Shown here: positions 1-63,353 of the stretch, piece after piece
How positions within the stretch are numbered: the first letter of the stretch is position 1
Layout: each line of letters begins with the position of its first letter
Virus record (IMG/VR): IMGVR_UViG_3300042343_001663
Coordinates: 1 to 64,000 of that record
Source: a virus
DNA: 64,000 nucleotides
Reading direction: 5' to 3' (one strand)
Position numbers and translations under genes: made by a program
The notes under the pieces: generated by a model
What the model saw: the letters and a program-made list of their open reading frames with translations, nothing else
Told to the model about the DNA's origin: nothing
Database searches by the model: none

Positions 1-3000
1 CCAGTAACATTTCCAATAATATCAGTACAACCACCAGTAAGAATACAAAATCGTCGAATGTATGATATTTATAGTATATCTAAAAATAATACCATATATG
101 GGCGCATGGTTGCAACCTCAATTTCTGATGTAAATTTTAATATTAGTGACTCAGAATATAACATAGTTAGCAAAGATGGTGGATTGACTTGGGATTTTAG
201 TGGTGGCGAAGCAGCTTCAAGGCCGGGATATACTAGAGTGGGAACATTCGCCAATGATGCTGGTGATAGGTATTTGTTAGCCTATGAATTTTCTAATAAA
301 ACAATATCGAATTTACCACTTGTTGTGAATTCTGTAATATATGAAAATTATGGAAAAACAGTCTATGATCTGCCATTATTAACAATAAATAATGCAGCAA
401 TAGGTATGAGTATTGATATTAAATTTATAAATAATACCATATATTTATATACAACAAATCAATCAGGATACGGATCACCAGAATATTACTATTATGTTTT
501 ATATTTGTCTTCAACTTCTGCGCCCACTAATCCAAACAATCCTATAGCAATAACTCCAACCCCAACAAAAAAAGCAAATCAATCATTTATTCCTTTAAAA
601 TTATATGATCTTGATCCAGAAAATAGATTTGAAAGAATTTTTCATATAAGCGAAGATCTTAATGAAATTATTGCTATTGAAAGAAACGACAACCAATTAT
701 GTTCGTATATTAGAAATGAATATAATACCTGGAATTTAAAAAATAATTATAACCTTAGAATAGCACTTACAGACATACGCGATGTATATATATCTAAGAA
801 TAAAAAAATAATAGGAATATTAGGAGAAACATCCTCTAATTATTGGAAAAATTCTGCTCAACCACGAATCCGCAATCTACTTATCTACGATATTTCCACG
901 GGGGTAGCAATATTTACAAATAATATTTCTGGAGATATTGATTTATTTTCAAGATTTGGAGCACCAAGCGAATATGATTCCCCTCCTTATTCTAATTTTT
1001 CCATGTCTGATGATGGAAAAGTAATGATTCTTGTTCGATCTCAACAAAAAAATGTTATTTATATTAGTGGGGCAGGCAAAACGAGTGAAAAGCAATTTGC
1101 TTACAGAACAAGTATTTCTACTGATTATGGTAAAAGTTTTGTCGCTGTACCATTTTTACAAAATATACTTAAGATTTCCTATGCAAATATTGATTTTAAA
1201 ATATCTAAAGATAATACTGAATTTTTATTTTTTATTTGGTATGATACGGAAACAGATAATGCTTTGTTGAGAACCAGTCCTTTAACATTATATAAAGGTA
1301 AAATAAATGGTTCAAATATAATAGATAATGGTTCAAATATAATAAATTACTCAAATTGGGAAAATAAATTTAAATCAGCATCTGATGATTTAAAGACTAT
1401 TTATATATCTAATACTAATCCTACAGAAACATCGACATCTTCAGCATCTACATACACAGAAAAAGGACTGTTATCAAAAGACGGTGGAGCAACGTTTGTA
1501 GAATCATATGCCCCCAACGGAACGAGAGAATATGGCAACGGAATTTCACTAAGGAACGATGTGACAATTTGCAATCCAGACGGAGATAAGTATTTCTCTA
1601 TTGTTAGAAACGATTTTCTTTGGGCTGGGTACAAAGATAATTTATCTTTAACATATTTTGAAAATTATGGACAAAAACTTATTACAGAAATATCATTAAA
1701 TGAAGATAATGACCCAATTAAAAATCAGTATTTTGGAGTTTGGGGAACCTATATTGGTGCAAAATGGTTGAATAATAATACTGTTGTTGTAAACTATGCT
1801 TTTCAAGGACCAGGTAGATCTGGTTATCTATACAAAAGTCGTATTTTTTTAACGGGGTCAAGTACGTCACTACCAGTAACTCCAACCCCCACAAAAAAGG
1901 CAACAAACTTAGGCATTACAAGGACACCAACCAGAACAAAAGCAGCAATAACCCCAACAAGAACTCCCACCAGAACAAAAGCAGCAATAGTTCCAACAAG
2001 AACACCATCATCAACGATACCAGGAAAAACTGTTAGGAATATTGTAGCAACTGGCGGAAATGAATGTGTTCGCTTAACATGGGATATGCCAGAAGATACC
2101 AGTAATCTTCTTGGATATAAATTATATTATTCTTATTCTACAACGAACTTTCAATTTGTGCCAGCATTTGATCCAACATATGGCGACACTCTCACTCCTA
2201 ATATAACGAGTGCCACAATAACAAATGTTCCAAATGATACCGGATATCAAGTTCAAATTAGAATTGAAACTGTATATTCTAATGGAAAAACATATCCAGC
2301 AGAAATTATGCAGTTTACAGACAAAACAAAATCTGTTCTAAATTCCTCTATATTAACTTTAACAAATCCATCAACTAGCTCTACAGCAAATTTAACATGG
2401 ACTCCTCCGATAGTTCAAAGGATTGGTCGCTTTACATGGACAACTCAATTATCTCTATTAATTTATAATAATGACGTACTAGAATTTCAATCTGATTATT
2501 TATCTAATTTTTATTCATATACTATTACTAATAAAAATGGAAATTATTCTTTTGAAATATCAGCAAGATATGTAAATGATTTTACCAATTCTTCTTTGAT
2601 ATATGTTAAATCTAATAGAGTAACTAAAACTTTAAATGCTGTAATAGCAACCTCAACTCCTACTCCAACCAACACTGTAACTCCCACAGTAACCCCAACA
2701 ACAACTCCAATAATTTTACCTGAATTTGTTAATATTTTCTTACAAGAAAATAGCTTTAATAAATCTAATAACTATTTTAATATAGATATATCAAACATAT
2801 CATCTAATTATCCAGTATTAGTATCTGATAGTTATGATATAGAAATCAATGGGCCTTATCCATTTGATGATATTCTTCATGTTGCAGCAATACAGTCGAA
2901 TGAGGCTAGCGAAGAAATTATTACCCAACCTTGGAGAAAAACAGAAACAAGAACAGCAAATGCGATATCGGATAAAATCTACATAACTCCAGAAGTTTTG

Positions 3001-6000
3001 GGAATATATTATGTTAGAATCAAACGAATAGTATCTAATACATATTCTAATATTCAATCGTTCTTTAGATCTTTTGATATTATAGAAGTGCCTCCAACAC
3101 CAACAGTCACTCCTACAGCAACAAATACGCCGACAGTAACAAATACGCCATCGGTAACTCCACAAATTAATCCAACTCCTACTAGAACTCCAACAAAACA
3201 AATTCCTGGATTAACAGCTATACCAACTAGTACTCCTAGTCAAACACCCACTAGAACACCATTTGTACCAAGACCCATAAATGAACTTGATTATACAACA
3301 GCTCAGATCGCGGTAAGAGATAGTAGCACTCCGGGAGCAGGATACTCACTAGACTGCAACATATCATTTAATCAACCAATAAGTTACGGTGGACAAAATT
3401 GGGAACAAGTATTCTTAAATTTTAATGGTAATTATATAAAAGCTCTATATGATAATGAAAATTTACCCAAAACACATAGAACATATACAACAACAGAAGC
3501 ATTCTTTAAAACAAACACCTCTAATGTATTAGGTCTTCATCAGTTAAAAAATACAACTCTGGTCATAGAACCTAAAGGAAACAATAAATATTTATGGATA
3601 GTAAAAACACAATACGATAAAAATAGTTTTAATTTATCAACGCCAATGTATGCTGCTGGTACAGTATTAACTTTTGAAATATTGTTAGATTATAGTCAAG
3701 GCAAAAAAACAAGTGCTACTTTTCTTAGCGCACGAGCAAATGCTCCTTACCCATATAGTGTTTGGGAATATTCTTATGATCCGTCACAATTTTTAATAGA
3801 TTTTGATATTAACGTAGATGCTACATCAATACCTGTAACGCCAACAGTGACGCCAACAGTTACTCCAACAATATCATTAACTCCCACAAATACTCAAACA
3901 AATACTCCAACAAATACTAGCACACCATCAGCAACAGTTACTCCAACCCCAACTAATATTGATACTAGCGTAACTAGAACACCAACCCCTACTAATACAA
4001 TAACTTCGACAAATACAGCAACTCCTACAATTACAGCAACGCCAACAGTAACTCCGTCAACGTCGGCTGCTCCAAGTCTTGAAGTATATTCTGCTGGAGA
4101 TAATCTTTATGGACAATTATCTAATCCGTTCGTAAGTTTTTCTTCAGAGTTCTCTAAAACTTATGATTCATTATTTATGAGTAGTAAAGAAATTTCGTGC
4201 GGAAATTATCATACATGTTTTGTAGCCAACGATGGAAATGTTTATAGTGTTGGACGTAATGCTCAAGGACAACTAGGAAGAGCAAGTTCTTCCATAAATA
4301 GTTTACAACATGGAGTTGTTCTATTCCCTGGAGGTGATTCGTCTCCATTTACACAAGTTTCTTGTGGAGCATCTCACACATTTGCGTTAAACTCTAAGGG
4401 GGAATTATATTCTTGGGGAAATAATACTAACGGACAATTAAGCTTAGGAGATAATATTGATAGAGCAACGCCGGTTCTAGTCAGTGGCATGATTAATGGG
4501 GCCCCATCTAATCCTGGAGTTTGGAAATATGTGGCCTGTGGTTCGTTTCATACTTTGGCGATTAATGTTAATGGAGAATTATATGCTTGCGGATTAAATA
4601 CTGATGGTCAACTAGGATTAGGAGACAATAGAGATAGGCTAAAATTAAGAAAAGTTACTGTTGATGGAAATTGGGTTAGTGCTGTTGGTGGAGGATATCA
4701 TACGTTAGCAATAAACTCTGCTGGACAGCTATATTCTTGTGGAAATAACTCTAAGGGTCAGTTGGGAGCAGGAACAGTAGGAGTTAATACTAATGTTCTA
4801 GGATTAAGTAATGGTAATATTACAAAAATATCCGCAGGACTATATCACTCTGTTTGCTTAAACAACTCATCTCCAACAGAGGTTTATGGATGTGGAGAAA
4901 ATTCATTTAATCAAATATCTAATGTTTCTAATAATTATCAACCATCTCCGTCGGTTGTTGGTTGGAGGTCTATAACATCTTATGGTACAGAAATCTCTTG
5001 TGGATATAATCATACTTTAATACTAAAAAATAATAATCTTTTATATGGTTGCGGAGATAATAGTAAAGGTCAGTTAGGAATAAAAAATAATACATCTAAT
5101 AATAATATTCTCACTCAGATAGGAGATAATAGTATTGTTAGAAAATTAGCTAATAAACAAGGATCAACACATTCTCTAATATTTATAGACGAAGGATCTA
5201 CAATATACTTACCACCAACTCCAACTCGTAGCAATACTCCAACCCCTACTCCAACAAAAAGACCCCCAGGATCAACAGCAACACCAACACCAACAAATAG
5301 TGTTACTCCAACAAGAACGCCAACATCAAGCAAAGTTCCAGGTATTATATTGGATCAAAGCGTATTCCAACCGAAATTTAATATTGTTGGAAGAAATAGG
5401 TCTTATTTGGTATCATATACCGGCCAACCTATCAGTTATAGATATAACACAGGAACTGTGTATGAGGACCCACGTACGGGAGCTCTTTACACAACATATG
5501 ATTATGGCAATAGATATGCTAGAACTTCTCAAGATCAACTAAGTCGAGTTGGAGGATATGTGCCGGGTCTAGGGGCTAGTACTTCTATTACAGACGATAA
5601 AAATTTATTACTTATAATATATGATCAGGATTGGAATATTTTTAAATATTTTAATGCAAATGAATTATTATCATATACAAGAAATTCCGATAACTCACAA
5701 ACCTATTCATTGGGTTATGCTGGTGGCAATGGTAAAATTGTTAATACATCTAATATATATAGTTATGACACTGGTAGTGGAACCTCTTATTATAATCCAA
5801 GTACAGTGTCCTTGTTGCCCCGCACGGTTGAAGTAAGTGAAAGAACAACTCAAATATTAGAGTTTCCTATTCAAGATGTAAATTTGCCGAGAGCTGGCCA
5901 ACCAAACTATATTGTGTTATATGGTTACAACGTATCAGAAGAATATAATTTAGATACATTAGTTAATGAATATTTAAATAGAACAACAGCAGATTACGGT

Positions 6001-7176
6001 TATAATAGTGTGAATATTAAATTTACACCTTTGGGTTGGTATAAAACAGATCCGTCAAAAACTACAGCAATTAGCCAATTAAACGAATATTCTGGAAATT
6101 TAGAGGTTAGTAATATACAAGATTATATAACAGCAAAAGTTACAACATATAAGAATAATTCAGTACGATTAAGGATTGGAACTACCAGTGGTACCACCCC
6201 CTCAGTAATAGATACTATTCTTCCAAATGATGATTATCCTCTTAAATATAGCGAAGGAAATACACCAATTCCAAATCCATATGCTACAGTAAGAGTTAAA
6301 ACTAATGCTACAGGAGAGTTTTCAGTATCATTACAAGGGATAGATGGAATTAACAGTTCCTCACAATTTTGGAAAAATTTTTACAATCTATCCGGCCCAG
6401 ACAAAACACTTACAATTAGTTCAATAGCCCCAAATCCTATTGTATCTCCAACAAACACAAAAACGCCGACGCCAACAAAAACGCCATCACAAACACCAAC
6501 ATCAGCCGCAAAAACTATTATAGCCCCAATATCAAATTACGTTCCTGGTAGCACCAGTATCTATACTCCGTATAAAACCTCCGGGGCTGTTTGCATATTT
6601 AACGAGCCCGATGGATCAGATTATATAAGAAATCAAATTAATGATCCTAAAGTGTATGCAAACGCTAGTACAAGTAAAATTATGGGAAATTGTTTGGTGC
6701 CACGAGTTCCAAACCCTACTAATGACTCGCCGTATCCCACAATAACTGCAGGAACTACTGAAGATATAGTCCCTAATTTTACAATAGAATATTATTTTTA
6801 TTTAAATAGTAATAAAGATACTACAATATATTCTAGTAATGCTAGTTACTATGACTCTGCTGCAAAAACGAATATAGACGCAAAATGGAAGTTAAAATAT
6901 AGTCCTTTGAGTGGTTTAGTATCAGAACAAAATCAGGGCAATATTGAACTTAATACAAAGCTACAAACAGGATGGTATCATTTTGCTGTAAGTTTTGATA
7001 AAGGAGATTTTAGATATTTTATAAATGGTAAACAAATAGCATTCAAATTTAATATTTTTATTAAATCGACAGCAATTAGACCACGCGTTATGACATATGT
7101 AGATCAATTAGACGCTTTAAGAATAACTAATGAATCTTTATACTATGTTCCTTTTGCAACGCTACCTCATATGTGA
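1..7176 (+). CDS. Giant multidomain fibre/adhesin-like protein (5' end outside window)
   Basis: The frame is open from base 1, so the first internal ATG (base 58) is probably not the true start; at least 2391 residues are visible. Counted from base 58: Asp-box/BNR-like motifs (SxDxGxT/SF) near residues 38, 360 and 470 suggest a sialidase-like beta-propeller; FnIII-like domains lie at about 660-860; an Ig-like stretch at 886-1010; an unassigned beta-rich domain at 1075-1255; six or seven RCC1-type repeats (GxNxxGQLG, SCGxxHT) at about 1345-1712; an unassigned domain at 1765-2125; and a LamG/concanavalin-like domain at about 2160-2372 (GWYHFAVSFD, YFINGKQ). Pro/Thr-rich linkers separate nearly every domain. 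I infer a tail-fibre or virion-surface adhesin. It overlaps the codons upstream of a protease gene. The domain mix is seen directly; the virion role is inference. Confidence 0.8.
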   Translation, partial: PVTFPIISVQPPVRIQNRRMYDIYSISKNNTIYGRMVATSISDVNFNISDSEYNIVSKDGGLTWDFSGGEAASRPGYTRVGTFANDAGDRYLLAYEFSNKTISNLPLVVNSVIYENYGKTVYDLPLLTINNAAIGMSIDIKFINNTIYLYTTNQSGYGSPEYYYYVLYLSSTSAPTNPNNPIAITPTPTKKANQSFIPLKLYDLDPENRFERIFHISEDLNEIIAIERNDNQLCSYIRNEYNTWNLKNNYNLRIALTDIRDVYISKNKKIIGILGETSSNYWKNSAQPRIRNLLIYDISTGVAIFTNNISGDIDLFSRFGAPSEYDSPPYSNFSMSDDGKVMILVRSQQKNVIYISGAGKTSEKQFAYRTSISTDYGKSFVAVPFLQNILKISYANIDFKISKDNTEFLFFIWYDTETDNALLRTSPLTLYKGKINGSNIIDNGSNIINYSNWENKFKSASDDLKTIYISNTNPTETSTSSASTYTEKGLLSKDGGATFVESYAPNGTREYGNGISLRNDVTICNPDGDKYFSIVRNDFLWAGYKDNLSLTYFENYGQKLITEISLNEDNDPIKNQYFGVWGTYIGAKWLNNNTVVVNYAFQGPGRSGYLYKSRIFLTGSSTSLPVTPTPTKKATNLGITRTPTRTKAAITPTRTPTRTKAAIVPTRTPSSTIPGKTVRNIVATGGNECVRLTWDMPEDTSNLLGYKLYYSYSTTNFQFVPAFDPTYGDTLTPNITSATITNVPNDTGYQVQIRIETVYSNGKTYPAEIMQFTDKTKSVLNSSILTLTNPSTSSTANLTWTPPIVQRIGRFTWTTQLSLLIYNNDVLEFQSDYLSNFYSYTITNKNGNYSFEISARYVNDFTNSSLIYVKSNRVTKTLNAVIATSTPTPTNTVTPTVTPTTTPIILPEFVNIFLQENSFNKSNNYFNIDISNISSNYPVLVSDSYDIEINGPYPFDDILHVAAIQSNEASEEIITQPWRKTETRTANAISDKIYITPEVLGIYYVRIKRIVSNTYSNIQSFFRSFDIIEVPPTPTVTPTATNTPTVTNTPSVTPQINPTPTRTPTKQIPGLTAIPTSTPSQTPTRTPFVPRPINELDYTTAQIAVRDSSTPGAGYSLDCNISFNQPISYGGQNWEQVFLNFNGNYIKALYDNENLPKTHRTYTTTEAFFKTNTSNVLGLHQLKNTTLVIEPKGNNKYLWIVKTQYDKNSFNLSTPMYAAGTVLTFEILLDYSQGKKTSATFLSARANAPYPYSVWEYSYDPSQFLIDFDINVDATSIPVTPTVTPTVTPTISLTPTNTQTNTPTNTSTPSATVTPTPTNIDTSVTRTPTPTNTITSTNTATPTITATPTVTPSTSAAPSLEVYSAGDNLYGQLSNPFVSFSSEFSKTYDSLFMSSKEISCGNYHTCFVANDGNVYSVGRNAQGQLGRASSSINSLQHGVVLFPGGDSSPFTQVSCGASHTFALNSKGELYSWGNNTNGQLSLGDNIDRATPVLVSGMINGAPSNPGVWKYVACGSFHTLAINVNGELYACGLNTDGQLGLGDNRDRLKLRKVTVDGNWVSAVGGGYHTLAINSAGQLYSCGNNSKGQLGAGTVGVNTNVLGLSNGNITKISAGLYHSVCLNNSSPTEVYGCGENSFNQISNVSNNYQPSPSVVGWRSITSYGTEISCGYNHTLILKNNNLLYGCGDNSKGQLGIKNNTSNNNILTQIGDNSIVRKLANKQGSTHSLIFIDEGSTIYLPPTPTRSNTPTPTPTKRPPGSTATPTPTNSVTPTRTPTSSKVPGIILDQSVFQPKFNIVGRNRSYLVSYTGQPISYRYNTGTVYEDPRTGALYTTYDYGNRYARTSQDQLSRVGGYVPGLGASTSITDDKNLLLIIYDQDWNIFKYFNANELLSYTRNSDNSQTYSLGYAGGNGKIVNTSNIYSYDTGSGTSYYNPSTVSLLPRTVEVSERTTQILEFPIQDVNLPRAGQPNYIVLYGYNVSEEYNLDTLVNEYLNRTTADYGYNSVNIKFTPLGWYKTDPSKTTAISQLNEYSGNLEVSNIQDYITAKVTTYKNNSVRLRIGTTSGTTPSVIDTILPNDDYPLKYSEGNTPIPNPYATVRVKTNATGEFSVSLQGIDGINSSSQFWKNFYNLSGPDKTLTISSIAPNPIVSPTNTKTPTPTKTPSQTPTSAAKTIIAPISNYVPGSTSIYTPYKTSGAVCIFNEPDGSDYIRNQINDPKVYANASTSKIMGNCLVPRVPNPTNDSPYPTITAGTTEDIVPNFTIEYYFYLNSNKDTTIYSSNASYYDSAAKTNIDAKWKLKYSPLSGLVSEQNQGNIELNTKLQTGWYHFAVSFDKGDFRYFINGKQIAFKFNIFIKSTAIRPRVMTYVDQLDALRITNESLYYVPFATLPHM
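1306..1344 (+). repeat. Tandem 18-bp direct repeat inside giant gene
   Basis: Two identical 18-base copies (1306-1323 and 1327-1344) with a 21-base period encode a repeated NGSNII peptide. It is in frame, so it adds one short peptide repeat. Probably a recent local duplication. Confidence 0.6.
3829..4068 (+). repeat. Longest Pro/Thr linker block (PT repeats)
   Basis: Degenerate runs of ACNCCNACN codons encode TPTVTPT-like linkers. This is the longest block; shorter ones lie near 545-575, 1876-2025, 2650-2710, 3091-3258, 5212-5335 and 6440-6510. They punctuate domain boundaries of the giant protein and look like flexible, possibly O-glycosylated spacers. Low complexity at DNA level makes them likely recombination or misassembly points. 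Confidence 0.75.
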
Positions 7177-54156: not shown

Positions 54157-55626
54157 ATGATTTTGTGTGATCCCTCGGCCGAAAGAGCCATACTTAGTGG
54201 TATATTAAAATATGGTGAAGATGCTTATTTGGATATAGCCGATATCCTTCAAGAATCATCTTTTACCATAGATAGCAATCAGGTAATCTTTAAATGTCTC
54301 AAAAACATTTGTGATAAAGAACCTAAGCCATCAATAGATCTTGCTTCTGTCTATTCTTCTTCAGAAGAACTAGGCTTGTCTAATATATTGTCCAAAAAAG
54401 AAGAAGCTCAACATCTTAAAGCGATATTCGACTTCCCCGTTAATTTGGAGAATGTTAGAAAATTTGCTACAAAGGTTAAAAAACTAGAGATAGCCAGATT
54501 ACTCCACAAAGAAATGGATCAGGTGCAGGATAGACTACTTGATGTTAATGGTAGTGAATCATTGTCCTCCATTATCGGAATAGCAGAAGAAGTAATATTT
54601 AATTTTACTTCAAAAATATCCAACGATGGAGAATCCGCTCCCGCTCCAATATCTTCTAATATAGATGATTACATGGAGTTTTTACAGTCAAATAAAGTTG
54701 ATCAAATAGGAATACCTACAGGATTTCCAGTATACGACAAAGCCATTGGCGGAGGCTTAAGAAGAGGCACGGTGAATGTAATAGCAGCACGACCAAAAGT
54801 GGGAAAAACCCTCTTATCTGACAATATGGGCTATTATATAGCTAGCAAGCTCCAGATACCTGTGCTTAATATGGATACCGAAATGACCAAGGAAGACCAT
54901 ATTCACAGAATACTTGCTATGTCTTCAGAAATAGAACTATCAAAAATTGAGACCGGTAAGTTTTCTGATACTCCAAGTTCGTTATCAAAAATTAAATCAT
55001 CAATAGAAGAATTGAAAGCAAGTAAGTTATTTCATAAAAGTATTGCAGGAAAAGCATTTGATGAACAACTTTCAATAATGAGACGATGGCTTATCAAAGA
55101 AGTCGGATTAAATGACGATGGAACAGCAAAGGACTGTGTTATATTTTATGACTATCTAAAGCTTATGGACAGTGCTGGTATAAGTCAAGATATGAAAGAA
55201 TATCAGGTTCTTGGTTTTATGATGACGGCGTTACATAATTTTGCTATACAGTATAAGGTTCCTATCTTAGCGTTTATTCAGTTAAATAGGGATGGCATAA
55301 CTAAAGAAAGTACTGATACTGCTAGCGGTTCTGATAGAATTATTTGGCTATGTAGCAATTTTACAATATTTAAAAGAAAATCAGACGAAGAAATAGCAGA
55401 GGATGGTTCTGATGCTGGTAATCGTAAACTAGTTCCATTAATCAGCCGTCACGGGGGAGGATTAGACGATAACGATTATATTAATTGTTATATGAAGGGC
55501 TGGTGTGCTAAGATTACCGAAGGTAAAACTCGTTTGGAGCTAATGAGCGGATCAAATAAGCAAAAGGGTGGATTTATAATTAATGAAGACAACAATGACA
55601 ATGAAGAAGAAATCCCATTCGTATGA
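54157..55626 (+). CDS. dnaB: Replicative DNA helicase (DnaB-like)
   Basis: 489 residues. N-terminal helical domain (ERAILSGILKYGEDAYLD), then a RecA-type motor: GLRRGTVNVIAARPKVGKT (Walker A about residues 210-218), MDTEMTKEDHIHR, Walker B VIFYDYLKLM, and QLNRDGI near the sensor. Hexameric 5'-3' helicase at the fork. Overlaps the primase gene by 44 bases, so the two are co-translated. Confidence 0.9.
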   Translation: MILCDPSAERAILSGILKYGEDAYLDIADILQESSFTIDSNQVIFKCLKNICDKEPKPSIDLASVYSSSEELGLSNILSKKEEAQHLKAIFDFPVNLENVRKFATKVKKLEIARLLHKEMDQVQDRLLDVNGSESLSSIIGIAEEVIFNFTSKISNDGESAPAPISSNIDDYMEFLQSNKVDQIGIPTGFPVYDKAIGGGLRRGTVNVIAARPKVGKTLLSDNMGYYIASKLQIPVLNMDTEMTKEDHIHRILAMSSEIELSKIETGKFSDTPSSLSKIKSSIEELKASKLFHKSIAGKAFDEQLSIMRRWLIKEVGLNDDGTAKDCVIFYDYLKLMDSAGISQDMKEYQVLGFMMTALHNFAIQYKVPILAFIQLNRDGITKESTDTASGSDRIIWLCSNFTIFKRKSDEEIAEDGSDAGNRKLVPLISRHGGGLDDNDYINCYMKGWCAKITEGKTRLELMSGSNKQKGGFIINEDNNDNEEEIPFV

Positions 55627-56752
55627 TCAACATCAACTAAAGCAGCTTTCTGATTTAGTTTGTGATGATATAGAGAATTTATTGTCGAATCTAGGGATAG
55701 ATTCTTATAAAATGCTAGACAAAATGGTTACCATGAGTTGTCCAATTCATGGTGGAGATAATGATTCTGCATTTAATCTGTACCACCAAGGAGATACCTA
55801 TAGAGGGAACTGGAAGTGCAGAACTCACGGATGTGAAAATGTATTTAAGTCATCAATTATAGGCTTTATAAGAGGGTGCTTGTCTCATGAAGAAGGGTGG
55901 GGAAAACCAGGAGATCCCACTGTGTCGTTCAAAAAGGCATTAGATTTTGCCATAGAATTTGGCAAATATAATCCAGCAAAAAATAAACAATCAAGAAAAG
56001 CAAAAGAAAAAAATGATTTTGTTAATACGGTAAAAAATATTACACAAGAATCTCAAAACAAAACACAATTAGTTCCTAGGAAATCAGTTCAAAAAGCCTT
56101 AGCTATTCCTTCTGAGTATTTCTTGCAAAGAGGATTCTCTAGAGATATTCTCATAAAATATGATATTGGGGATTGTATTGGACAAGGTAAAGAAATGAGC
56201 AATAGGGCGGTTGTTCCTGTATATGATAATGATATGACAGGAATGATTGGATGCTCTGGTAGAAGTATTTTTAATAAGTGTGGCGAATGCGGATGTTTCC
56301 ACCAAGAATCATCAGACTGTCCTGCTGATCATGAAAAATGGCTACAATCAAAGTGGAGACATAGCAAAAATTTTAAAACTCAAGAATGTTTATATAATTA
56401 TTGGTTTGCTAAAGAATTTATTTTAAAAACTAAAACAGCAATTATAGTAGAAAGTCCAGGAAATGTTTGGAGACTAGAAGAAGCAGGAATACATAATAGC
56501 GTAGCTATTTTTGGTTCTTCTATGGGAAACAAACAAAAAATTCTTTTAGATACTTCTGGTGCTATGAATATTATAACAATAATGGACAATGACACTGCTG
56601 GACAAGAGGCTGCAAAAAATATAGCTAGTAAATGCGATAGGATATATAATATTAAAAACATTAAATTGTCCGTTAATGATATTGCAGAAATGACTCTTGA
56701 AGAAATTCAAAAAGAAATTTTACCCCAAATAGAAGAGTATCAAGTATGTTAG
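55583..56752 (+). CDS. DnaG-like primase
   Basis: 389 residues. N-terminal zinc-binding part (SCPIHGGDND, CRTHGCEN), a middle RNA polymerase-like region (LQRGFSRDILIKYDIG), a second Cys cluster (CGECGCFHQESSDC), and a TOPRIM domain with IVESPGN (Glu about 290) and MDNDTAGQEAAK (acidic pair). Makes primers for DNA synthesis. Two other nearby ATGs at 55595 and 55601 are possible starts. Confidence 0.86.
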   Translation: MKTTMTMKKKSHSYDQHQLKQLSDLVCDDIENLLSNLGIDSYKMLDKMVTMSCPIHGGDNDSAFNLYHQGDTYRGNWKCRTHGCENVFKSSIIGFIRGCLSHEEGWGKPGDPTVSFKKALDFAIEFGKYNPAKNKQSRKAKEKNDFVNTVKNITQESQNKTQLVPRKSVQKALAIPSEYFLQRGFSRDILIKYDIGDCIGQGKEMSNRAVVPVYDNDMTGMIGCSGRSIFNKCGECGCFHQESSDCPADHEKWLQSKWRHSKNFKTQECLYNYWFAKEFILKTKTAIIVESPGNVWRLEEAGIHNSVAIFGSSMGNKQKILLDTSGAMNIITIMDNDTAGQEAAKNIASKCDRIYNIKNIKLSVNDIAEMTLEEIQKEILPQIEEYQVC

Positions 56753-57496: not shown

Positions 57497-58537
57497 GTGA
57501 TAATAACATATTTTAGAAGCAGTTCATACAATACACACTCCATGTGTGAGCAACAATATTTTGCTGAATATGTTTTGGGGTGGAGAGGTCCGTCTGGTCA
57601 AAAAGCAGACAAAGGAACAATCACGCATAAAATATTAGAGATTCTAGCAGTCATAAAGAAAGCTGAGCAAGACAATCAAAATACAATAAATGACGATTTA
57701 ATTGGAGACATTGACGTTAAGAATTATGACTTAGATTCGATCATAGACACGGTATACACATACTATACAAATAATACTCAGCATCATAAGTGGACACCAA
57801 AAGATCTCAGAGATTGTAAAAATTGGACATATAAAGCCATAGAATTTAATAATGGAATGTTTGATCCTAGAAATAGGAACATACTCATGCCAGAGCAACA
57901 CTTTGATTTTGAAATAAATAAACCATGGGCTAAATATTCATATAATATGGACGGTCAAGAAATTAGTGGCAACTTAGCACTAAAAGGAACCATAGATTTA
58001 ATTACACAAGTTAATGACTCTACCATCGAGGTAATTGACTGGAAAACTGGTCGCAGACTTGATTGGGCCACAGGAGAAGAAAAGACTTTGGAAAAACTAG
58101 AAAAAGATCCTCAACTAAAGATATATCACTATGCTATCAAACATCTCTACCCAAATATTAAAAATATAATTTTTTCAATCTATTTTATAAACGATGGAGG
58201 ACCGTTCTCTATTTGTTTCCATGACTCGGACTTGCAGTCAACAGAAGATATGTTGAGGTATAAATTTGAAGCTATTAAAAGCACCAAAAAACCAAGACTA
58301 CATAAAAGCTGGATGTGCAATAAGTTATGTCATTTTGGTAAAACCACTTTTGAAGGTACTCATATTCAACCAACAGAAGAATATAGAGATGGTCAGACTT
58401 GTAACATAGGGCAAAATATGACCAAGTGCGAACAAATAAAACATGACCTTGACCTATACGGAATCGACACTACAATGGTCATGTACAAAAACAAGAATCA
58501 CTCTATTGGACATTATAAAGCTCCTGGGTCACTATGA
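57497..58537 (+). CDS. PD-(D/E)xK nuclease (Cas4/RecB-like)
   Basis: 346 residues from a GTG start with AAGGAC upstream. SSSYNTHSMCEQQYF, GTITHKILE, LKGTIDLITQ, IEVIDWKTGRR and LKIYHYAI form the RecB-family nuclease core. Cys at the N-terminus plus a C-terminal CNKLCHF and CEQ could bind an iron-sulfur cluster. Likely processes DNA ends in recombination or replication. Overlaps the polymerase gene by 4 bases. Confidence 0.82.
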   Translation: MIITYFRSSSYNTHSMCEQQYFAEYVLGWRGPSGQKADKGTITHKILEILAVIKKAEQDNQNTINDDLIGDIDVKNYDLDSIIDTVYTYYTNNTQHHKWTPKDLRDCKNWTYKAIEFNNGMFDPRNRNILMPEQHFDFEINKPWAKYSYNMDGQEISGNLALKGTIDLITQVNDSTIEVIDWKTGRRLDWATGEEKTLEKLEKDPQLKIYHYAIKHLYPNIKNIIFSIYFINDGGPFSICFHDSDLQSTEDMLRYKFEAIKSTKKPRLHKSWMCNKLCHFGKTTFEGTHIQPTEEYRDGQTCNIGQNMTKCEQIKHDLDLYGIDTTMVMYKNKNHSIGHYKAPGSL

Positions 58538-60402
58538 CAAAAACGTACTCTGTTCTTCATGCCCATTCTCACTATAGCCTCCTAGACGGCCTCAGCAAGC
58601 CATCTAAAATGGCAGATAGGTGCTTGTCAGCAGGAATCAAAACCTGTGCTCTCACGGATCACGGGACAATATCTGGCTGTGTTCAATTCTATAAAGAAAT
58701 GACAAGCAAAAAGATAAAGCCGATATTGGGTTGTGAAATATATGTACCAAAACAAGACTCGCACATTAAAGAAAAAGAGAATAGTCAATTAAGCCATTTT
58801 TTATTGCTGGCTAAAAATCTAGCAGGATGGAAATCTCTTATTCAAATAATTTCTGAAACGAATAAAGCAGAAAACTTTTATCACAAACCACGAATAAGTT
58901 TCGATAGACTTGCACATCTATTGGATGGAAATATTATTGGATTTTGTGGTCATTTAGGGTCTAGTTTGTCAGATTTAATAGAAGAAAACCCTACTGACTA
59001 TCTAAAGGGCTCGCTGTCTTTTATAGACTATATGAAAGAAATTTTTGGTAAAGATAATTTCTTTTTAGAATCACAACTAATGGATCAAGAAATAAATCCT
59101 AAGCAAAAAACAATGACAGATATAATGAGAATATTGGGAGATAAGAGCAAAACTAAAATTATTGCTACTCCAGATGCTCATTATTGCGAAAGAAAAGATG
59201 CTATAGATCAAAGAATTTTATTATGCAATAATCTAAAAACAACTTTGATTGATATTAATAAAAAGCTATTGTCAAATGAAGATGTTCCAATGAGTTGTTT
59301 TTTTAAGTCTGATAGTTTTCATATACCTGATCCAGAAGAAATGATATCTTGGCACACACAGGATGAAATTGAAAATACTTTATATGTAGATTCTTTGTGT
59401 GAAGAATATTCAATTTTATCGAAGCCAGCATTGCCCGAATTTAAATGTCCAAAAAATAATACTCCAGAAGAATACTTAAGACATTTATGTCGAGAAGGAT
59501 GGAGACAAAAAATTGTTAATCATATACCAGAATCAGAACATACTCCTTATGTTGATAGAGTAAAGTTTGAATTAGATATTTTACAAAAGGCTGGTTTGTC
59601 TAGCTATTTTTTAATAGTTCAAGATATTGTTGAATATGTTAAATCAAATAACTGGCTTCCTGGGCCTGGACGAGGTAGTGCGGCTGGATGTCTTGTGTCT
59701 TATTTAATTGGCATAACGGATATTGATCCGATCAAATATGACTTGTTGTTTGAAAGATTTTATAACGAAGGACGAAATACAGCCGATCACATATCCATGC
59801 CAGATATAGATGTTGACGTACCTATCAATAAGAGAGAATATATAATTGATTATATCAAAAATAAATACGGGTCTGATAAAGTCTCTCAAATGATTACATT
59901 TAACACAATGAAAGGAAGAGGGGCTTTAAAAGAAGTATTAAGAGTATATGATAATGTAAGTTTTGAAGAAATGAATAGAATCACAAAATTTATTCCTGAC
60001 GAATCAAAAATTGCAGATGAACTACAAGAAATGAAAGAAGATACCGGAGAGGCATCAATTATAAGATGGGCTTTAGAGAACAATGTTGACAAGCTCAAGG
60101 AATGGTGCTATATATCAGAGGACGGATCTCTGGCTGGTCCAATGGCCAAGAGGTTTGAACAAGCTATACGTTTAGAAGGAACTAAGTCTAATCAGTCAAA
60201 ACATGCTGCCGGTGTAGTTATTAGTAGTCAGAAGCTTAATGGGGTATGTCCTATGGTTTATGACTCTAAAAATAAACAATCTATTGCTGGCATGGAAATG
60301 CAAGATTTAGAAGGTCTTGGTTTAATAAAATTTGATATATTAGGCGTAGCTATGTTGGATAAGATTATGACTATTTCAGATATTTTATCAAAAGGAGAAT
60401 AA
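58534..60402 (+). CDS. dnaE: DNA polymerase III alpha, N-terminal half (PHP and palm)
   Basis: 622 residues. PHP domain: HAHSHYSLLDG, ALTDHGTISG, CGHLGSS and ATPDAHYCE look metal-competent. Polymerase core: PGPGRGSAAGC, PDIDVD with catalytic D424 and D426, and IKFDILG with D601. The protein stops 21 residues after D601, where complete C-family polymerases continue into fingers and OB domains; that part is encoded separately at 61283. It ends cleanly (ISDILSKGE) with no intein sequence. The halves probably assemble into one enzyme. Confidence 0.88.
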   Translation: MTKTYSVLHAHSHYSLLDGLSKPSKMADRCLSAGIKTCALTDHGTISGCVQFYKEMTSKKIKPILGCEIYVPKQDSHIKEKENSQLSHFLLLAKNLAGWKSLIQIISETNKAENFYHKPRISFDRLAHLLDGNIIGFCGHLGSSLSDLIEENPTDYLKGSLSFIDYMKEIFGKDNFFLESQLMDQEINPKQKTMTDIMRILGDKSKTKIIATPDAHYCERKDAIDQRILLCNNLKTTLIDINKKLLSNEDVPMSCFFKSDSFHIPDPEEMISWHTQDEIENTLYVDSLCEEYSILSKPALPEFKCPKNNTPEEYLRHLCREGWRQKIVNHIPESEHTPYVDRVKFELDILQKAGLSSYFLIVQDIVEYVKSNNWLPGPGRGSAAGCLVSYLIGITDIDPIKYDLLFERFYNEGRNTADHISMPDIDVDVPINKREYIIDYIKNKYGSDKVSQMITFNTMKGRGALKEVLRVYDNVSFEEMNRITKFIPDESKIADELQEMKEDTGEASIIRWALENNVDKLKEWCYISEDGSLAGPMAKRFEQAIRLEGTKSNQSKHAAGVVISSQKLNGVCPMVYDSKNKQSIAGMEMQDLEGLGLIKFDILGVAMLDKIMTISDILSKGE

Positions 60403-60403
60403 A

Positions 60404-60586
60404 ATGGAAACCAAATTTGAAGAGTTGGCTGTCGGAGCAAAGTTTAAAGTAAATGATATAGAATATATTAAAACAGATGAAGTTAGAATAAGCTGTTGCA
60501 GAACAGTGAACTGCTATGCGTCGGCAGATTCTGCTCAGAAGGGTCATTTCCCAGGAAATACGGTGGTAACTTTAATTAATGGCTAA
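60404..60586 (+). CDS. Small beta-rich protein between polymerase halves
   Basis: 60 residues. KFEELAVGAKFKVNDIEYIK resembles the start of the protein at 16555. A KGHFPGNTVVTLI end suggests a small barrel. It overlaps the exonuclease gene by 8 bases. Function unknown. Confidence 0.6.
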   Translation: METKFEELAVGAKFKVNDIEYIKTDEVRISCCRTVNCYASADSAQKGHFPGNTVVTLING

Positions 60587-61283
60587 TTTTCAAAAAATAT
60601 GTGTGTTCGATCTGGAAACCGACGGAGTGAATCCAGATGTATGTAGTCCTGTGCAGATAGCCGCTATTATTGTTGATCCATCAAAATTGGAAATTGTGAA
60701 AGATTCAGAATTTAATATAACAATAAAGCCAGATATACTTGAGCAACAGCCAGATTACACATATGCCGACTCTGATGTTTTAGACTTTCATGCTAAAGTA
60801 AGAGGAAAGGCAAAAGATGAGATTCTGTCTGATTGGAAAAGCTATAAAAGACAAGATCATGGATGGGATATGTTTGTTTCTTATTTAGACATGTACCATA
60901 CAAGATCTCATGGAGGTAAAAAATCTTGTTTCACAGCGCCCATAGCTGCTGGTTATAATATTAATAGATTTGATCTTAGAATTATGGATAGGCTAAGTAA
61001 AAAATATAATAATCTGAATAAAGAGGGACGATCTTCTTTATTTTATCCAAGAGATGTGATAGATATTATGAATCTTGTATTCTATTGGTTTGAGGGTAAT
61101 AACGAACTTAAAAACTATACATTAGACAATCTTAGAGATTATCTTGGTATAGACAAAGAAGGGGCTCATGATGCTCTAAAAGACGTTAAAGATACTGCAA
61201 ATATATTAATTAGATTTTTAAAACTACATAGAAATCTATGTAATAAAATAAAATTTAAATCATCATTTATTGGACTCGAATAA
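60579..61283 (+). CDS. DnaQ-like DEDDh 3'-5' exonuclease (proofreading)
   Basis: 234 residues. FDLETDG (D11, E13), YNINRFDLRI (D132) and HDALKDVKDTAN (H197, D202) are the DEDDh set. IDIMNLVFYWF and NLRDYLGI are family-typical. It lies between the two polymerase gene halves, so it is a strong candidate epsilon subunit. Its stop overlaps the start of the C-terminal half by one base (TAATG). Confidence 0.88.
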   Translation: MANFQKICVFDLETDGVNPDVCSPVQIAAIIVDPSKLEIVKDSEFNITIKPDILEQQPDYTYADSDVLDFHAKVRGKAKDEILSDWKSYKRQDHGWDMFVSYLDMYHTRSHGGKKSCFTAPIAAGYNINRFDLRIMDRLSKKYNNLNKEGRSSLFYPRDVIDIMNLVFYWFEGNNELKNYTLDNLRDYLGIDKEGAHDALKDVKDTANILIRFLKLHRNLCNKIKFKSSFIGLE

Positions 61284-62908
61284 TGGCCGAAGTGTTTACG
61301 TTTGATTGCGGTTGTAAATTTCCAGTTATAGAGAATAATTCTACTTTTCCAAAAATAGAATTTACTCCAAAACTATCCGATATTAGTCTGGAATGTGAAA
61401 AGACTTGGGATTTGATTTCTGATGGAAATACCAAAGGGTGTTTTCAGTTAGAATCAAGACTTGGACAAACAATGGCACGAAAACTCAAGCCCAAAAATAT
61501 ATATCAGCTTTCTGGGCTGATTAGTATTTTGAGACCAGGATGCTTGGAGGCTATGAGAGATGGCAAGAGCGTATCTAATCACTATATAGATAAAAAGAAC
61601 GGATTAGAGTCTATAGACTATTTCCATCCGGCATTAGAGCCTATTCTCAAAGATACATATTCAGAAATGATATATCAAGAACAGGCTATGTCTATTGCTA
61701 AACAATTAGCAGGATTTAATCTTAAGGAAGCTGATGATCTTAGAAAAGCTATTGGTAAAAAACAAGCAGACAAAATGGCCAAGGTTAAAGAACAATTTAT
61801 TATTGGTTCTAAAAATAAGGGCTTAATAAACGAACAAGAAGCAGAGCAAATTTTTGAATGGATTGAAAAAAGTCAAAGATACTTATTTAATGCCAGTCAT
61901 TCTATTAGCTATGCTATGAACGCATATTTATCAGCATATGCAAAAGCTCATTTTCCAAAAGTATTTTTTGCTTCGTACTTGAGATTCGCAAAAGATAAAA
62001 TAGATCCACAACAAGAGATAAAAGAATTAGTAAGAAATGCTATAGAGATGGATATCGACATTAGCATACCGGATTTTAGAAACTTAAATGAGTTATTTAT
62101 ACTTAAAGATAAAAAGATCTATTTTGGATTAACAGATATCAAAGGTGTTGGTAAGTCTGTTTATAGTAAAATATTAGAAATAATGAAAGATAAGAATCCT
62201 CAAGAAATGAGTTGGATGGATATTATTTCATCAGTTTTACTGAATATCAATTCTAATGCCGCTAAGGCTCTTATTAGTTGTGGAGCGTTTGATTATTATA
62301 AAAAGAATCGATCTGAAATGGTATTTGAATATGACATATGTTCTAAATTAACCAAAAAAGAACACATATCTTTGAATCATTATCTTTCAGTAAAAAAAGA
62401 TTCAGGTATTGTTGAGGCTTTTAGATATATTTATGATAACACAAAACTAATCAAAACTAGAAAAGAAGCGATTGGTAATCTTATAAGTCTATTGAATAGT
62501 CCTCCGTATTCATTAATAGATAAAATAGAATGGCTGTCAGACTCTGAAAACTCATTATTGGGAGTTGGTATAACGTGTTCAAAATTAGATGTTTATGATA
62601 TCACGAACGCCAACTGTAACTGTAAAACATTTAAAACCTCTTTGATTAAAGATAATATTATTTTAGCAGGGGAGATCTCTAATGTTAATGTTACTAAAAC
62701 TAAGACAGGTAAAAATCCCGGCCTTGAGATGGCATTCGTGACAATCGAAGACCAGTATGGGACACTGGATACTGTTGTGTTTTTCCCAGAAGCATTCTCT
62801 AAGTATAGGTCTAATATTTTTACTGGAAATATTCTAGTGTTCGTTGGTAATAAAAGCAAGTCTAAGGATGGCCTAATTGTAGAAAAATGCTTTATTCCAG
62901 CATCTTGA
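61283..62908 (+). CDS. dnaE: DNA polymerase III alpha, C-terminal half (fingers, OB)
   Basis: 541 residues. Begins with a small Cys-containing segment (TFDCGCKFPV), then resumes the family at ISDGNTKGCFQLESRLG, LSGLISILRPGCLEAM, YQEQAMSIAKQLAGF, NASHSISYAMNAYLSAY, then a helix-hairpin-helix-like stretch (GLTDIKGVGKSVYSK) and an OB domain at the end (LAGEISNVNVTKTKTG). It lacks the catalytic Asp residues, which are all in the other half, so it cannot polymerise alone. Confidence 0.88.
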   Translation: MAEVFTFDCGCKFPVIENNSTFPKIEFTPKLSDISLECEKTWDLISDGNTKGCFQLESRLGQTMARKLKPKNIYQLSGLISILRPGCLEAMRDGKSVSNHYIDKKNGLESIDYFHPALEPILKDTYSEMIYQEQAMSIAKQLAGFNLKEADDLRKAIGKKQADKMAKVKEQFIIGSKNKGLINEQEAEQIFEWIEKSQRYLFNASHSISYAMNAYLSAYAKAHFPKVFFASYLRFAKDKIDPQQEIKELVRNAIEMDIDISIPDFRNLNELFILKDKKIYFGLTDIKGVGKSVYSKILEIMKDKNPQEMSWMDIISSVLLNINSNAAKALISCGAFDYYKKNRSEMVFEYDICSKLTKKEHISLNHYLSVKKDSGIVEAFRYIYDNTKLIKTRKEAIGNLISLLNSPPYSLIDKIEWLSDSENSLLGVGITCSKLDVYDITNANCNCKTFKTSLIKDNIILAGEISNVNVTKTKTGKNPGLEMAFVTIEDQYGTLDTVVFFPEAFSKYRSNIFTGNILVFVGNKSKSKDGLIVEKCFIPAS

Positions 62909-62932: not shown

Positions 62933-62972
62933 ATGTTAGTTGCGTGTTTTCTTTTACAAGGAGTTTGATTAT

Positions 62973-63353
62973 ATGAATATTACATTGCTAAAGGGTAATC
63001 TTGCTAGAGATCCAGAACTAAGGACAGTTAACACTGGAGGTAAGCAGACATCAGTTGTTAATTTCACTATTGCCGTATCACGAGAGTATACCAAGGCTAG
63101 TGGAGACAAGGATAAGATTACTTCGTTTATTAATTGTGAGGCATGGGACAGTGGGGCTGAGACTATCGCTGAGTCCTTAAAGAAGGGTGATCTGGTGATG
63201 GTAGAAGGGTCATTACGTAATGACTCTTGGGAAAAGGATGGAGTAAAGCATAATAGTCTTAAGGTACGAGTAAATAATTTTTCAAAAATTACTAAGCTCT
63301 CCAAGACTCCAAATGCTAAAACCGACACATCAAAGGAAGTTGTCGCTTTCTAA
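62973..63353 (+). CDS. ssb: Single-stranded DNA-binding protein
   Basis: 126 residues from ATG 62973, which has AGGAG 11 bases upstream. OB fold: NITLLKGNLARDPELR, VVNFTIAVSR, FINCEAWDSGAETIAESLKKGD, VEGSLRNDSW. The C-terminus (KEVVAF) lacks the usual DDDIPF acidic tip of host SSB, so partner recruitment likely differs. Own strong promoter and terminal hairpin suggest high, separate expression. Confidence 0.9.
   Translation: MNITLLKGNLARDPELRTVNTGGKQTSVVNFTIAVSREYTKASGDKDKITSFINCEAWDSGAETIAESLKKGDLVMVEGSLRNDSWEKDGVKHNSLKVRVNNFSKITKLSKTPNAKTDTSKEVVAF

Follow-up and report, generated by a model that had tools for sequence, protein, structure and literature searches.

A phage DNA polymerase III alpha subunit encoded by two genes with an epsilon-like exonuclease gene between them

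Does a phage assemble its replicative polymerase from two separate chains, or are the two genes that encode it joined, decaying or supplanted? The question is raised by a locus in IMG/VR record IMGVR_UViG_3300042343_001663, of which positions 1 to 64,000 (here called the window) were analyzed; the record itself is only a 64.8-kb fragment. On the plus strand, the window carries the N-half of a polymerase III alpha subunit (alpha-N; PHP, palm, and thumb; 622 amino acids [aa]; 58534..60402; PF02811 [PHP], PF07733 [DNA_pol3_alpha], phrog_405), a 60-aa protein that we call S (60404..60586; an invariant CC and a nearly invariant N36), a 234-aa DEDDh 3'-5' exonuclease resembling epsilon (E; 60579..61283; PF00929, phrog_192), and the C-half of the polymerase (alpha-C; fingers, HhH, and OB; 541 aa; 61283..62908; PF17657, PF14579, PF01336, phrog_405). 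The N, E, and C open reading frames (ORFs) lie in three frames, and two genes separate the polymerase halves.

The two halves were compared with intact family-C polymerases. Pfam places PHP and DNA_pol3_alpha in the N-half and DNA_pol3_finger and HHH_6 in the C-half, where the OB match (PF01336) falls just under the Pfam cut-off. The whole catalytic triad is encoded by the N-half, with D424 and D426 in PDIDVD (codons at 59803..59811, plus strand) and D601 in IKFD (60334..60336, plus strand); all three were read from the translation and are conserved in the family alignment. An earlier note on this DNA had described this division of domains, with a DEDDh exonuclease and a 60-residue protein in the gap, and the ORFs and Pfam matches bear it out. 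The N-half spans positions 41-613 and the C-half 622-1055 of phrog_405, a profile of full-length phage DnaE; aligned to Taq DnaE (2HPI), the N-half stops at 625 and the C-half begins at 648. Because these ranges adjoin without overlap, the halves are contiguous and non-overlapping. The break falls in the palm/fingers linker, past the final palm Asp and ahead of GNTKGCFQLES, the first conserved motif of the fingers; in the window the last 18 residues of the N-half follow the IKFDILG motif. NASHSISYA, the motif close to the site of the cyanobacterial split intein, is unbroken in the C-half, and the break site is distinct from the cyanobacterial one, as the same note had held. A structural model of the C-half (predicted local distance difference test [pLDDT], 85.4) matches Pol III alpha with Z scores of ~20. 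PHP, palm with three catalytic Asp residues, fingers, HhH, and OB are thus present in the order that marks family C (DnaE). The single polypeptide that is usual for DnaE, though not strictly defining, is replaced by two ORFs, and the split is kept across the clade described below.

IMG/VR was scanned with either half. The order N, E, C was found in 318 loci from many metagenomes, representing 176 distinct N/E/C sequence combinations; since loci from separate scans may overlap, 176 is the safer figure. The earlier note had allowed that the intervening genes might be an assembly artifact, and recurrence of the arrangement in so many loci from many metagenomes excludes both chance and assembly error. 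Scans seeded with split halves favor split relatives, but fused forms were detectable, because the genome scan also yielded 74 fused DnaE sequences. No fused member was found within the split clade. Fused genes turned up in just three of the viral loci, L428, L429, and L431, which share 26-29% identity with the query; a maximum-likelihood tree places L428 and L431 outside the split clade. The tree covers 50 sequences, and its 27 split members are monophyletic on a long stem (Shimodaira-Hasegawa-like approximate likelihood ratio test, 100), with L426 branching first among them; it was a quick tree in which several rows are long or composition biased, so that any placement of the exact sister group is tentative. 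The cultured Rossellomorea phage phiT1 (PV767480), whose gp20 and gp18 are broken at the same palm/fingers linker with a 49-aa gene between them, falls elsewhere in the tree. Most IMG/VR relatives were recovered as the same gene set, N-S-E-C. Two contigs binned with a Lokiarchaeota metagenome-assembled genome, which are probably phage contigs, led to a deeper branch that retains N-E-C, with S absent or replaced by another gene of 70-80 aa. At the level of gene sequence, these data confirm that the split arrangement defines a whole clade of uncultured phages rather than an isolated case.

Sixteen related records of 121-244 kb were searched for other polymerases. Each has one fingers match and one palm match (or the two pieces of the latter), and none has a second DnaE, PolA, PolB (PF00136), or beta clamp (PF02767). 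The window's own 64.8-kb record has a single PF07733 match. A full-length dnaE elsewhere, which the earlier note had named as a finding that would overturn its view, was therefore found neither in these relatives nor in the fragment that the window's record represents. The lack of other polymerases in the 16 records is strong but not complete evidence, the records being linear. Nonsynonymous divergence (dN) is ~0.1-0.17 for both N and C, and synonymous divergence (dS) is near saturation, indicating purifying selection on both halves. Pairwise distances correlate most highly between N and C (r = 0.84), followed by C and E (0.75) and E and N (0.71), with values of 0.48-0.58 for S with the others.

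The new N terminus of the C-half carries a feature of its own. C-halves open with ~30-45 residues that contain a CxC motif and then a third Cys ahead of the first fingers motif; in the window this cap is residues 1-38 (C9-G-C11...C38; 61283..61396, plus strand). The cap, defined by its Cys pattern across distinct members, is present in 172 of the 176; all three Cys residues are gone together in 3, and the last Cys alone is kept in 1. The cap Cys residues are invariant in A2, and no counterpart was seen in the fused DnaE relatives compared. The AlphaFold model of the C-half renders this stretch as short strands, and the alignment with most solved structures of Pol III alpha begins only at about residue 15-25 of the C-half. 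Judging from its position where the severed linker was, the cap most likely binds metal or stabilizes the new N terminus or the joint between the chains. It is absent from L426, the first branch, and from phiT1; the break therefore probably preceded the cap, which the C-half would have gained at the break, after the break itself.

In the window, N and S are 1 nucleotide (nt) apart, S and E overlap by 8 nt, and E and C overlap by 1 nt (TAATG), a spacing that is typical of translational coupling. Taken together, the evidence makes it highly probable that a single translationally coupled operon encodes a naturally two-chain, non-covalent family-C replicase together with its epsilon. One mRNA would yield alpha-N and alpha-C in a set order; the chains would fold as domains and associate non-covalently into an active alpha subunit, and the nested epsilon would attach to it. 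That the holoenzyme assembles from separate chains, as the earlier note had proposed, is supported as the best reading, given that the main break has no intein and differs in site from the cyanobacterial one. Three points weigh against it: the case for two-chain assembly is drawn from sequence, the putative metal role of the cap is deduced from a Cys pattern, and all 16 large records are classed as linear in IMG/VR and may be incomplete. Few enzymes are as constrained as a replicase, yet one lineage of large phages has maintained it as two genes through deep divergence, with the gene for the proofreader between them. The arrangement makes it possible to test palm and fingers as separate working chains and the contribution of epsilon to assembly of the core.

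The exonuclease motifs FDLETDG, GYNINRFD, and HDALKD are retained by most distinct members, and the ExoI, ExoII, and ExoIII patterns of DnaQ/epsilon are present in 171, 162, and 157 of the 176, respectively. The earlier note had named epsilon as a possible bridge. In a stronger form of the two-chain reading, epsilon would be an obligate bridge, the core being N-epsilon-C and the alpha chains staying apart without it. This is possible but unlikely. It gains from the finding that epsilon lies between the halves in every clade locus in which all three genes are readable, even where S is missing (L416 and L396) or cargo genes are present. However, gene order may be kept for stoichiometry or coupling alone, and the same break occurs in phiT1, whose gap holds no exonuclease gene. 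In addition, E. coli epsilon binds the PHP side of alpha, and contact with the N-half alone is thus the default expectation. Slightly more doubtful is an obligate three-chain core in which epsilon and a metal-bound cap would hold the palm/fingers joint, making polymerization and proofreading structurally interdependent; to our knowledge, no family-C replicase behaves in this way.

The two-chain replicase could also be decaying or accessory, with another host or phage polymerase carrying out replication. Incomplete records would leave room for this explanation, and the window's own record is only 64.8 kb long. It is nonetheless improbable, since the catalytic residues are kept, both halves are under purifying selection, no other polymerase family occurs in the 16 large records, and the genes stand in a cluster with those for a helicase, a primase, and a single-strand binding protein.

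Joining of the halves after translation was considered next to their assembly as separate chains. Across the 176 distinct members, N-half tails extend 16-28 aa past the palm Asp motif and C-half leaders extend 17-56 aa ahead of GNTKG, lengths too short to accommodate intein halves at the main break. The tail and leader sequence is ordinary DnaE or CxC cap, and a Pfam scan of the window's N-half and C-half found no intein domain; the absence of a visible intein at either edge, stated in the earlier note, thus holds. A trans-splicing intein too divergent to recognize has a precedent nearby, as split inteins with freestanding endonucleases are present elsewhere in these polymerases. In L082, L083, and L146, one at GRG/SAAG leaves the N-half in two genes (PF14890 in L146), and in L426 (L426:11018-13850) one at FNK/SHAVSYA divides the C-half (PF01079 and PF14890), accompanied by a DUF559/NUMOD3-like endonuclease and a few residues off the cyanobacterial DnaE intein site. 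Even so, tails and leaders of such ordinary sequence, far below the length of intein halves, make an unrecognized intein at the main break very improbable. Joining at the RNA level by a group I or II intron, or by frameshift or readthrough, has the least chance of all: some phage DnaE genes do look intron broken (Bacillus phage Jayan at MP/DIDTD and Enterocloster phages with I-HmuI-type genes), but a gap of 1 nt separates the N stop from the S start, E and C overlap, three frames are used, Rfam at the gathering threshold found no intron family in the window or in six other loci, and some relatives carry unrelated genes such as ThyX and DUF1559, spanning up to 3.9 kb, between E and C. Short tails and leaders, coupled junctions, the lack of an Rfam match, and the cargo genes together make joining by any of these routes very unlikely.

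How the two-chain arrangement arose is suggested by further breaks in relatives. In L096, L140, and related N-halves, a LAGLIDADG gene sits at PDIDVD, and the downstream piece has ~90 extra residues and repeats the motif; these broken N-halves gave no Rfam match, and no intron or intein was recognized in them. ORFs resembling HNH homing endonucleases occur in the N/E gap of L073, L083, L173, and L426, as judged by eye, with Pfam giving only weak helix-turn-helix matches. Fractured genes with split inteins have been described (Dassa 2009, as cited in PMC6892783), a split-intein PolB is known from phage MIJ3 (PMC6892783), and genes in pieces made by homing endonuclease genes, such as phage RNR, are mentioned in PMC10448857. 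The pairing of a split intein with a freestanding endonuclease that typifies the first class is missing from the window's main break and present at other breaks of L146 and L426; likewise, the window gap contains neither a homing endonuclease gene nor an intein. Both modes are nevertheless seen in the polymerases of relatives, and the mode of origin is likely shared. Because relatives carry inteins or endonucleases at other breaks and in the N/E gap, birth of the split by homing-endonuclease fracture, with later loss of the endonuclease, is plausible. One ancestral fracture at the palm/fingers linker would then have been fixed, and epsilon would have been placed or kept between the halves. In separate observations, the dnaE of Enterocloster phage CB457P2 (L159) is in several pieces with I-HmuI-type genes, and that of Jayan (L167) is broken at the site given above; both are probably intron cases.

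Among known systems, bacterial Pol III alpha (DnaE) with DnaQ/epsilon has the same domains in the same order, the catalytic Asp triad, and a separate DEDDh proofreader chain, but bacterial DnaE is one chain, whereas the phage version has two chains, a nested epsilon gene, and a CxC...C cap at the new N terminus. Cyanobacterial DnaE is likewise encoded by two genes, but its break is at another site and an intein joins the halves. Closest in the literature is the split minimal Pol III alpha of group 2.2 jumbo phages (Iyer et al. 2021; PMC7824862), which also consists of two stand-alone chains with no intein reported. That enzyme, however, is a catalytic core only, split between the NTP-binding and Mg/template-binding subdomains and encoded by distant genes beside a PolB. 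The enzyme of the present clade has PHP and OB, is broken after the last catalytic Asp, and is encoded by adjacent genes around epsilon, with no family B polymerase (PF00136) in the 16 records. PhiT1 shares the linker break, a small gene in the gap, and the lack of a visible intein, but it lies outside the split clade, has no gap exonuclease and no CxC cap, and has an unrelated 49-aa gene; its break at this linker is a separate one. A search of IMG/VR with the phiT1 N-half found no relatives. OM43 phages MEP401 and MEP402 (PMC10580990) have a replicative PolA split into two ORFs around a small ORF of unknown function, for which the authors consider an intron, but this polymerase is of family A and has no separate proofreader gene. 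The passages found in a 2024 survey of Caudoviricetes polymerases do not mention split PolC-family genes, and in the literature found, no Pol III alpha with the full domain set is described as broken at the palm/fingers linker around an epsilon gene. Phage-split Pol III alpha has thus been known since 2021, and what is new is the full-domain, linker-broken, epsilon-nested form. As a natural break in Pol III alpha with no intein, it is useful for split-polymerase design. Automatic annotation may give both halves the name "DNA polymerase III alpha" or overlook one of them, so that surveys may miscount phage family-C polymerases. A swapped gene order in Bacteroides phage DAC19, suggested by an exonuclease match, was rejected, as the neighboring genes match neither N nor C by BLAST or profile.

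The remaining contents of the gap vary. S is found in only part of the clade, being undetected, replaced, or absent in 34 loci, and by this distribution it is dispensable. Its predicted fold is an SH3-like barrel like EF-P domain I and Tudor-like barrels (Z, ~5.5; a common arrangement), with a weak likeness to some small uncharacterized phage proteins; no relative of S was found in the phages collection, and it matches no Pfam family. In L331, L334, L335, L337, L338, L352, and L427, the position of S right after the N-half is occupied by a second family, of 70-80 aa (KYPFIKKV...SFD...GSM.FE), and in L346 (L346:5915-6172) a GroES-like (Cpn10) gene lies between the N-half and the exonuclease. 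In L157 and L171, the E/C gap carries cargo genes for ThyX and a pseudopilin-like DUF1559 protein; because DUF1559 is typical of Planctomycetota, it hints at the host.

The neighbors of the split polymerase in the window, assigned by Pfam and PHROG and all on the plus strand, are a DnaB-like replicative helicase (54157..55626; PF03796, phrog_19), a Toprim primase (55583..56752; PF13662, phrog_47), a PD-(D/E)XK exonuclease whose stop overlaps the N-half start (57497..58537; PF12705, phrog_69), and a single-strand binding protein (62940..63353; PF00436, phrog_44). A dNMP kinase is encoded in this neighborhood as well. Far from this cluster, positions 58-7176 of the window encode a 2372-aa protein that matches "regulator of chromosome condensation" PHROGs.
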